Assembly (NCBI GenBank): GCA_031292485.1
Contig: JARLHA010000070.1
Span: forward strand, 1 to 64,000
From: Mucilaginibacter sp.
GTDB lineage: Bacteria; Bacteroidota; Bacteroidia; Sphingobacteriales; Sphingobacteriaceae
Length of the DNA stretch: 64,000 nt
Direction of reading: 5' to 3'
Each line of letters begins with the position of its first letter. Within the stretch, counting starts at the first letter, position 1. The notes under the pieces were generated by a model. That model was not told the DNA's origin, ran no database searches, and saw nothing but the letters and a program-made list of their open reading frames with translations. Below, one piece after another: positions 52,638 through 64,000 of the stretch. Both the position numbers and the translations under genes were made by a program.

Positions 52638-52668
52638 TTTTGATATTACAAACAACTCTCTATATTTG
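52638..52668 (+). promoter_or_regulatory. Promoter of the histidine operon
   Basis: TTTTG (52638-52642), an 18-base spacer and TATATTTG (52661-52668) match the Bacteroidota promoter. Transcription would start about 52675, just ahead of a hairpin and the His-rich leader ORF. Confidence 0.75.
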
Positions 52669-52680
52669 CGCAAACAATCC

Positions 52681-52707
52681 GTAGAGACGCAATACTTTGC
52701 GTCTCTA
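52681..52707. repeat. GTAGAGACGC hairpin repeat, copy 1 (his leader)
   Basis: TAGAGACGCAA (52682-52692) and TTGCGTCTCTA (52697-52707) form an 11-bp stem with loop TACT. The same 26-base unit occurs at 63734-63759 and, inverted, at 63782-63807. Confidence 0.9.
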
Positions 52708-52716
52708 TCAAACAAA

Positions 52717-52779
52717 ATGAACGGTTACAAACAACATCATCTGTCATTGCACCATCACCACCATGTGGTGATCAGATAA
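52717..52779 (+). CDS. Histidine-rich leader peptide
   Basis: A 20-codon ORF (ATG 52717, TAA 52777-52779) encodes a peptide with seven His in total: a HH pair (residues 7-8) and five His in a row (12-16). It lies about 70 bases upstream of hisG, after a promoter. Such runs of the regulatory amino acid are the hallmark of ribosome-mediated attenuation (known from enterobacterial his leaders). It is too short to be found by usual gene callers. Confidence 0.8.
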   Translation: MNGYKQHHLSLHHHHHVVIR

Positions 52780-52827
52780 TGTATGTTTCTACGCGAAATA
52801 ACAACCCCGGTTCATTCTTTTCTTTTT
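52735..52827 (+). promoter_or_regulatory. Putative his attenuator structure
   Basis: Within the leader ORF, ATCACCAC (52754-52761) and GTGGTGAT (52765-52772) form a perfect 8-bp hairpin with loop CAT. It is enclosed by CATCATCTG (52735-52743) and CAGATAATG (52773-52781) with one mismatch. Further down, GTTCATT (52810-52816) can pair with AATGAAC at the leader start (52716-52722), followed at once by a pyrimidine-rich tract CTTTTCTTTTT (52817-52827). The terminator arm is inferred; the central hairpin is clear. Confidence 0.6.
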
Positions 52828-52846
52828 AGTTTCTTAATTTTAATCA

Positions 52847-53698
52847 GTGAAAACACTTAAAATAGCCATCCAGAAATCTGGCCGGCTCAACGAAAAATCC
52901 GTTGAATTATTAAAAAATTGCGGCCTTAGCTTCGAAAACTATAAGAGCTCGCTTATCTCCCCTGTATCCAATTTCCCGCTCGAAATACTTTTTTTGCGCG
53001 ATGACGACATCCCTGAATATGTACAGGACGGCATTGCCGACCTGGGTATCGTAGGTGAAAACGTGATCCGGGAAACCGAAGTGGAAGTAAGTTATCTACA
53101 GCGCCTTGGCTTTGGAAAATGCAGTTTAAAAATTGCCGTCCCCAATAATAACAGCATCCAGCACCTCGACCAGCTTAACGGCAAAGCCATCGCTACCACC
53201 TACCCGGTTATCCTCGGCAAATTCCTGAAAGAAAAAAATATCCAGGCGGATATCCGTACCATTTCGGGGTCGGTAGAGATCTCGCCGGGCCTGGGCCTGA
53301 GCGATGCCATCTGCGATTTGGTGTCCACCGGCGGCACTTTAAAAAGCAACGGGCTTGTGCCTTTTGCCGATGTAATGTCATCCGAAGCGGTACTGATTGG
53401 CCGCAAAGGCAGCGAAGATGAAGAACTGGTAAAAGAATTGATCCAGCGGATCCAGTCGGTGTTAAGGGCTAAAGAGACTAAGTATGTTGTACTAAATGTT
53501 CATTCAGATAATTTATCAGCCATTATCAGCCTTTTACCGGGCGTTAAAAGCCCATCTGTTGTACCTTTGGCCGAAGAAAACTGGGTTGCGGTTCATACCG
53601 TTATCCCTGAACGTGACTTTTGGAACAAAATAAGCCAGCTGAAACAAGCCGGCGCCCAGGGCATAGTGGTAATGCCGATTGAGAAGATAATACTTTGA
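52847..53698 (+). CDS. hisG: ATP phosphoribosyltransferase (long form)
   Basis: HisG joins ATP to PRPP, the first and feedback-regulated step of histidine synthesis. It has 283 residues and a C-terminal ACT-like regulatory domain, so it does not need HisZ. It starts with GTG (KTLKIAIQKSGRLNEKSVEL). Motifs include DLGIVGENV, SGSVEISPGLGLSDAICDLV and VHSDNLSAIISLLPGVKSPS. First structural gene of the his operon. Confidence 0.96.
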   Translation: MKTLKIAIQKSGRLNEKSVELLKNCGLSFENYKSSLISPVSNFPLEILFLRDDDIPEYVQDGIADLGIVGENVIRETEVEVSYLQRLGFGKCSLKIAVPNNNSIQHLDQLNGKAIATTYPVILGKFLKEKNIQADIRTISGSVEISPGLGLSDAICDLVSTGGTLKSNGLVPFADVMSSEAVLIGRKGSEDEELVKELIQRIQSVLRAKETKYVVLNVHSDNLSAIISLLPGVKSPSVVPLAEENWVAVHTVIPERDFWNKISQLKQAGAQGIVVMPIEKIIL

Positions 53699-62711: not shown

Positions 62712-63737
62712 ATGTCAAAATTTAACAAATTACAGCTCATAAATATATTTTCGGCACTGGGTGTTCAATTAATTAACCCTGATGAAAACCTGCTGGAGAC
62801 CATTGAAACAGAACATCATTACAATGCGTGGTTTACTGCCGACAGTGTTTTGCATGCCATAAAAGCCATTGGTGTGATGCTGAACGAAAAAGACCTGGGC
62901 TTGTGGCTGGATAGATATAACCTGGATGAAAACAAACCGGAAAAAAAAGTCGGGCTCATTCTTGCAGGTAATATCCCCCTGGTGGGCTTTCATGATATAT
63001 TATGTGTTTTGGTCACCGGCAACTATGCCCTGATAAAAGCCTCATCACAAGATGCCCGCCTGATTAAAGGTATTTTAGCGTTATTGACGACCATAGAACC
63101 TCATTTTAAAGGGCAATATAGTTTTGTTGAAAGGCTGACCGGCTTCGACGCCGTTATTGCTACCGGCAGTAACAATACCTCCCGCTATTTTGAATATTAT
63201 TTTGGCAAAGTACCCAGTATCATCCGCAAAAACAGGAGTAGTATAGCCGTGTTACGCGGTGACGAAACGGCTGAGCAATTATACCAGCTTGGCCATGATA
63301 TATTTGATTATTTTGGTTTAGGCTGCCGTAATGTATCCAAATTGCTCGTGCCGGAAGGTTATAACTTCAATTTCTTTTTTGAATCGATAGAAGTTTACAA
63401 CAACATCATCAACCATAACAAATACAACAATAATTATTTTTATAACAAGTCCATTTACCTGGTAAACAGCGATAAACACCTTGACAACAACTTTTTACTT
63501 TTGAAGGAAGATATCAGGCTCGCCTCCCCTCTCGGTGTATTGTATTTTGAATATTATGATGACCTCAATGCTGTAAAATTAAAGCTGACTGAAGACAGCG
63601 ACCGGATTCAATGCGTAGTTAGCGCAATTCCATTGGAAATAAACAACCAGGTAGTTGATTTTGGCCAAAGCCAGCAACCTGCATTGTGGGATTATGCTGA
63701 TGGTGTGGATACGATGCAGTTTTTGACAACCTTGTAG
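62712..63737 (+). CDS. LuxC-like acyl-CoA reductase
   Basis: This 341-residue member of the aldehyde-dehydrogenase-like LuxC family shows VGLILAGNIPLVGFHDILCV, YALIKASSQDARL, VIATGSNNTSRYFEYYFGK, RKNRSSIAVL and FGLGCRNVSKLLVPEGY, whose Cys is the likely catalytic residue. It probably reduces an acyl-CoA or acyl phosphate to an aldehyde. The stop codon TAG (63735-63737) lies inside the GTAGAGACGC repeat. Confidence 0.85.
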   Translation: MSKFNKLQLINIFSALGVQLINPDENLLETIETEHHYNAWFTADSVLHAIKAIGVMLNEKDLGLWLDRYNLDENKPEKKVGLILAGNIPLVGFHDILCVLVTGNYALIKASSQDARLIKGILALLTTIEPHFKGQYSFVERLTGFDAVIATGSNNTSRYFEYYFGKVPSIIRKNRSSIAVLRGDETAEQLYQLGHDIFDYFGLGCRNVSKLLVPEGYNFNFFFESIEVYNNIINHNKYNNNYFYNKSIYLVNSDKHLDNNFLLLKEDIRLASPLGVLYFEYYDDLNAVKLKLTEDSDRIQCVVSAIPLEINNQVVDFGQSQQPALWDYADGVDTMQFLTTL

Positions 63738-63807
63738 AGACGCAATACTTTGCGTCTCTGATATAAATGCATCGGAACAAACAGAGACGCAAAGTATTGC
63801 GTCTCTA
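63734..63807. repeat. Two facing copies of the GTAGAGACGC hairpin repeat
   Basis: GTAGAGACGCAATACTTTGC continues to 63759; the inverted copy at 63782-63807 ends TTGCGTCTCTAC. Each copy is an 11-bp hairpin by itself and the two can also pair with each other. They separate the convergent reductase and partial gene. Confidence 0.9.
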
Positions 63808-64000
63808 CGATTTCAACGTTCTATTGTCAAAACCCCGTCGTTGGGGTATGCCTTGTATTGAATAAAACGGCCTTTGTCATCACGTTCTACGGTTATTTTT
63901 TGCACTTTTTTACCTTTAGTAATAATTGCCTTCTTCCATTCTGAAGGCACATACGTTTTCAACGTCAAAGGTAAATTGTACATCGTTTTATCAAGCGAGT
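63804..64000 (-). CDS. Partial gene, C-terminal end at the window edge
   Basis: An open frame on the minus strand runs in from the right edge and ends with TAG at 63804-63806. The visible part reads NLPLTLKTYVPSEWKKAIIT and ERDDKGRFIQYKAYP, beta-strand-like, as in the C-terminal domains of exported deacetylases or hydrolases. A one-base slip in an AAA run near 63839-63842 may have changed the last residues (see findings). Family not certain. Confidence 0.5.

Follow-up and report, generated by a model that had tools for sequence, protein, structure and literature searches.

A probable histidine-responsive leader in a lineage without a compact his terminator

How might a histidine-rich leader peptide control a his operon when the leader holds no compact transcription terminator? 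The question is raised by a 64,000-nucleotide (nt) stretch of Mucilaginibacter sp. DNA (contig JARLHA010000070.1, positions 1 to 64,000, forward strand; hereafter the window), in which an initial annotation, made from the sequence alone, placed a probable attenuator upstream of hisG. As described there, an open reading frame (ORF) of 20 codons lies between a promoter and hisG and contains seven His codons, five of them in a row. The operon behind it is complete (hisG-D-C-B-H-A-F-IE, gene identities by NCBIfam models), and the closest relatives of hisG among named records are from Mucilaginibacter. Comparison with related genomes inclines us, with some reserve, to see in the window a histidine-responsive leader-peptide regulator in which the output of the attenuator has moved from transcription termination to initiation of hisG translation.

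52717..52779, + strand: leader peptide ORF encoding MNGYKQHHLSLHHHHHVVIR, from ATG at 52717 to TAA at 52779 (sequence, conservation)
52847..53698, + strand: hisG, beginning with GTG and heading the operon hisGDCBHAF-IE, which extends to 60376 (NCBIfam models)

Conservation of the His-codon leader upstream of hisG

The leader ORF and its His run are retained in close relatives. A leader was defined as an ATG-initiated ORF of 6–45 codons with at least four His codons within 12 codons, located no more than 300 nt from hisG. Such a leader precedes hisG at 90/90 distinct Mucilaginibacter-type loci, at 79 of the 82 loci from other Sphingobacteriaceae and at 39 of the 57 loci from other families of Bacteroidia; a few genomes have possibly entered these counts twice, and about 10 of the 90 Mucilaginibacter-type loci come from neighbouring genera (Pedobacter, Daejeonella, Arcticibacter, Paradesertivirga and others). 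No His leader was found on the reverse strand upstream of hisG (0/229), and dinucleotide shuffles yielded at most 6 in 410. Elsewhere in the window, just two other loci contain an ATG ORF of 6–45 codons with at least four His codons in 12, and the HHHHH run is absent from both. The leader start, the His positions and the flanking structure are conserved, while many other codons vary. The His-rich leader upstream of hisG is not a product of chance, and its presumed role as a histidine sensor that extends through the class Bacteroidia is strongly supported by the comparison. hisG has no recognisable His leader at locus L146 (genus group g4) or at the Bacteroidia loci L173, L197, L199 and L215, possibly owing to another operon order or to loss of the leader.

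Near-absence of the compact terminator in Sphingobacteriaceae his leaders

In other Bacteroidia, the His leader is followed by a compact GC-rich hairpin and a run of U's, for example AAACCCGUUUGAGUACAUCAAACGGGUUU-UUU, and a compact intrinsic terminator was found in 47 of the 57 his leaders (about 13% in shuffles). At 42 loci outside Sphingobacteriaceae that have both leader and terminator, the stretch after the His codons prefers its own terminator 5' arm over those of other species (z = −5.7, 0/3000), and the His segment likewise prefers its own post-His stretch (z = −4.4, 0/3000). Read from their sequences, the his leaders outside Sphingobacteriaceae are textbook attenuators. The same search recovered a terminator at 1/90 Mucilaginibacter-type loci and at 6/43 loci from other Sphingobacteriaceae, both near the shuffled rate (about 0.1); the few matches in the family mostly overlap P1, the hairpin formed by the His codons.

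The trp operon of the same family behaves differently. In 30 Sphingobacteriaceae genomes (L268–L297), trpE is preceded by a Trp leader that has two or three Trp codons (30/30), and a compact terminator is found in all but one (29/30); an ATG lies near the start of the trpE open frame in all 30. Because the trp leaders of the family keep their compact terminators, the change is specific to his.

A co-evolving long-range helix between the leader start and the region before hisG

A long-range helix, P0, ties the leader-start region to a segment some 45 to 8 nt ahead of hisG; relative to the gene it lies at about −45 to +2.

52711..52722, + strand: P0 5' arm, AACAAAATGAAC, covering the leader start codon (pairing check; swap test)
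52810..52821, + strand: P0 3' arm, GTTCATTCTTTT, followed by a pyrimidine tract (pairing check; swap test)

In the window, AACAAAATGAAC and GTTCATTCTTTT pair at 10 of 12 positions, including GTTCATT at 52810–52816, whose pairing with the leader start had been proposed at the outset and proves to be real. Across genera the helix occurs in compensatory versions with the pairing kept: AUGAACGG/CCGUUUAU in Mucilaginibacter, UAAAGUAUUGA/UCAAUACUUUG in part of g3 (a Pedobacter-like genus), AGUUAUUAAUA/UAUUAAUAAUU in g2 and UUGGGCCAAA/UUUGGUCUGA in g4. RNAalifold on MAFFT alignments of whole leaders left P0 unrecovered in most groups; since the arms shift between genomes and thereby defeat RNAalifold, a partner-swap test was used. 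Arms pair better with their own partners than with swapped ones (z = −11.5, 0/5000 permutations, n = 107). Inside genus groups z ranged from −1.8 to −4.4, and these values are the more conservative because the swap permutation leaves relatedness in.

The median end of the P0 3' arm lies at −24 relative to hisG in Mucilaginibacter, −8 in g3, −23 in g2 and −15 in other genera, and in part of g3 the arm reaches the hisG start codon. The comparison also suggests that P0 may extend further and compete with a local 5' hairpin. Among 80 Mucilaginibacter leaders, a 5' ACTAT and a pre-hisG ATAGT co-occur (50 with both, 14 with neither, 8 + 8 mixed; relatedness uncorrected).

Bacteroidota seldom use Shine-Dalgarno sites. 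The start codon of hisG is GTG or TTG at 161 of the 162 Sphingobacteriaceae loci with short leaders; it is ATG at all eight long-leader loci of the family (groups g5, g8 and g12) and in most other Bacteroidia.

Local hairpins formed by and next to the His codons

Three further helices are local.

52754..52772, + strand: P1, His codons paired with GTGGTGAT (pairing check; compensatory changes in relatives)
52734..52782, + strand: outer stem round the His-codon hairpin, 52734–52743 with 52773–52782 (pairing with one C·A mismatch)
52785..52799, + strand: P2, GTTTC-TACGC-GAAAT, 3' of the leader stop codon (conservation, covariation)

P1, ATCACCAC-CAT-GTGGTGAT, is perfectly paired and is exactly the 8-base-pair (bp) hairpin over the His run that the initial annotation had described; the 9-bp stem said to enclose it does have nine pairs, but one C·A mismatch breaks it. 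Columns 23 and 35 of P1 exchange GC and AU pairs in a compensatory manner (29 sequences). The P2 consensus, GUUUCUACGYGAAAY, is near-invariant in most genera and present as a single copy in the genome of the window species; g3 carries GUUUUG/CAAAAC instead, with the pairing still kept. For P1 and P2 together, 89% of cells hold standard pairs, and their covariation score was matched by 0/500 shuffles. By eye, P2 may in some genera form rival pairs with early leader codons (GUUUUCAC/GUGAAAC, UUUUGAA/UUCAAAA) or with the hisG start.

A proposed model for control of hisG translation

The His codons would read charged histidyl-tRNA through the speed of the ribosome, as hisL and the conserved codons lead one to expect. 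With histidyl-tRNA plentiful, the ribosome would clear the leader, P1 and P0 would close and hisG initiation would be repressed. When histidyl-tRNA is scarce, the ribosome would stall at the first His codons (codons 7–8) and sit on the leader start, which is the P0 5' arm in Mucilaginibacter, and on part of P1; because these segments would be masked, P0 would open and hisG would be translated. Control of the Sphingobacteriaceae his operon is probably exerted at the level of translation, a step that we infer mainly from the missing terminator, the location of P0 and the weak start codon. Of the original attenuator interpretation, the His-sensing leader stands, and termination as its output is probably incorrect, or unproven at best.

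When a ribosome is placed at the first His codon in partition-function folds, P0 pairing in Mucilaginibacter drops to about half (from 14.3 to 6.9 expected pairs), and it is reduced in every other group too; with the ribosome at the leader stop codon, it changes little. With the ribosome at the first His codon, the hisG start region is also predicted to open more cheaply, by 0.5–1.0 kcal/mol, in three of the four groups; base-wise unpaired probabilities there barely shift with ribosome position. The fall in opening cost has the right sign but is weak, and neither prediction is decisive.

Several observations weigh against translational control. The folds are equilibrium folds and predict little change at the hisG start region, and none in g2. 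In most genera, P0 stops 8–24 nt short of the start codon and does not cover it. A U-rich tract (at least five U in the 8 nt after P0) is found in 29/80 Mucilaginibacter; the corresponding place in the window is occupied by a pyrimidine tract. In the eight genomes with long leaders, the hisG ATG is located 108–320 nt after the leader stop codon, and P0, if kept, cannot reach the start. These loci (L147, L148, L153, L154, L162, L163, L242 and L261) have additional sequence between P0 and hisG, which in g12 includes TTGAAACC, resembling the old TTG start.

The wider proposal is that a whole family re-coupled one amino-acid attenuator, so that it acts on translation initiation and no longer on transcription termination, with the leader kept, the terminator lost, P0 evolved, the hisG start weakened and trp left in the ancestral state. 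We hold the case for it to be evenly poised.

Alternative outputs of the leader

Transcription attenuation is the rival that survives best. P0 (AAUGAAC/GUUCAUU) and the pyrimidine tract would then make up a branched intrinsic terminator round the whole leader, and a ribosome stalled at the His codons would mask the P0 5' arm and let RNA polymerase read on. The co-evolution of P0 is equally expected here, relatives outside Sphingobacteriaceae do use terminators, and CUUUUCUUUUUAG follows P0 in the window, in keeping with the U-rich tracts of Mucilaginibacter, in which termination by P0 and the pyrimidine tract is possible. A terminator of this kind, however, would have a loop of about 90 nt on a short, A/U-rich helix, and the U-tract follows P0 at only 9/75 loci in other genera. 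The GTG/TTG starts of hisG and the compact terminators kept in the trp leaders of the family also speak against it, and we consider it rather unlikely. The terminator arm that the initial annotation had drawn with the leader start is unsupported for the family, which has no compact terminator and, outside some Mucilaginibacter, few genera with a U-rich tract after P0.

Rho-dependent control is less probable still. Translation of the leader would set Rho loading between the leader stop codon and hisG, with P0, P1 and P2 gating the site. Sphingobacteriaceae his leaders have no intrinsic terminator and the spacer before hisG contains pyrimidines, both of which this explanation accommodates, but a conserved loading site was not recognised and P0 and the weak hisG start would be left unexplained.

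Direct binding of a protein or tRNA by the conserved RNA, in a T-box-like or riboswitch-like manner and with the leader peptide secondary, is very improbable: the near-invariant P2 would suit such a role, yet an Rfam scan of the window at the gathering threshold gave no match, T-box model included, and the His-codon leader is retained in almost all genomes. Chance or a coding artefact, with a negligible probability, is ruled out by the conservation and by the reverse-strand and shuffle controls.

The promoter and a repeat at the 5' end of the leader

52639..52668, + strand: promoter, TTTG (52639–52642), 18-nt spacer, TATATTTG (52661–52668) (Bacteroidota sigma-A type; from sequence)
52681..52707, + strand: mobile hairpin repeat GTAGAGACGCAATACTTTGCGTCTCTA (perfect 11-bp arms; genome pattern count)

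The promoter is present as first annotated, and the leaders of relatives are likewise preceded by TTTTGATTT...TATATTTGC in the promoter comparison. The transcription start of the window his leader is a deduced position. A sigma-70 promoter scan was set aside as ill-suited to Bacteroidota.

The hairpin just after the transcription start, described initially as a mobile repeat, is repeated genome-wide, with 83 matches to its pattern vs 0 for a control pattern. It has the form GTAGAGACGCA-N-TGCGTCTC and frequently occurs in close inverted pairs (REP/REPIN-like); further copies in the window lie at 63734–63758 (+) and 63784–63808 (−). Most Mucilaginibacter carry the short hairpin CTATAGT-nnn-ACTATA in its place, and one repeat copy took over this site of the conserved 5' his-leader hairpin. 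A degenerate copy is found at the same leader position in the relative L060.

Relation to known leaders and significance

The leader shares with enterobacterial hisL (RF00514) a short peptide with consecutive His codons that form a hairpin. It differs in that hisL has a compact terminator with U's, whereas here a long-range helix adjoins hisG and the window has no Rfam match; an Rfam scan of 20 relatives gave no usable family and, for RF00514, only L217, at 33.9 bits and below the 49-bit cut-off. The his attenuators of other Bacteroidia have the His leader peptide, the His-codon hairpin, the operon and the class in common with it. They possess compact terminators, co-evolving antiterminators and mostly an ATG at hisG, all of which the Sphingobacteriaceae largely lack, and their terminator form is most likely the ancestral one. 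Bacteroid-trp (RF01692) and the Sphingobacteriaceae Trp leaders resemble it as leaders before an amino-acid operon in Bacteroidota; the Trp leaders of the family differ from his in the retained intrinsic terminator and in the ATG available for trpE. The RF01692 covariance model had no match in the genome of the window species.

In translational attenuators, the terminator is replaced by a structure that hides the ribosome-binding site (PMC9413887). These and the actinobacterial LEU element, for which the authors favoured a protein-binding role, also combine a leader peptide with pairing near the start of the first gene and no terminator (PMC1262725); the leader described here differs in its His codons and in a helix that runs from the leader start to the stretch before hisG.

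The initial annotation knew of no described case with this layout in this phylum, but related cases have been described. In Flavobacterium psychrophilum, a structured 5' element lies at hisG, which has no Rfam hits and recurs in further Flavobacteriaceae genera, and hints of leader-peptide attenuation before amino-acid operons were reported as well (PMC9723704). Bacteroid-trp provides an earlier case of a cis-acting regulatory RNA from the phylum (PMC2864571). Given these reports, attenuation of his is in itself nothing new for Bacteroidota. A search of open-licence papers found no description of the terminator-less Sphingobacteriaceae form, and the his leader with a long-range helix in this family appears to be an undescribed variant. 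Vitreschak 2004 and Lopatovskaya 2010 reportedly touch on Bacteroidetes attenuators.

The collection contributes His leaders from across the class, a set that is missing from Rfam. Nature also supplies here a before-and-after pair inside a single class: most families combine the His sensor with a terminator, Sphingobacteriaceae have the same sensor and no terminator, and the trp operon serves as internal control. This makes it testable in what way a leader-peptide sensor can come to drive a different output where Shine-Dalgarno initiation is rare.
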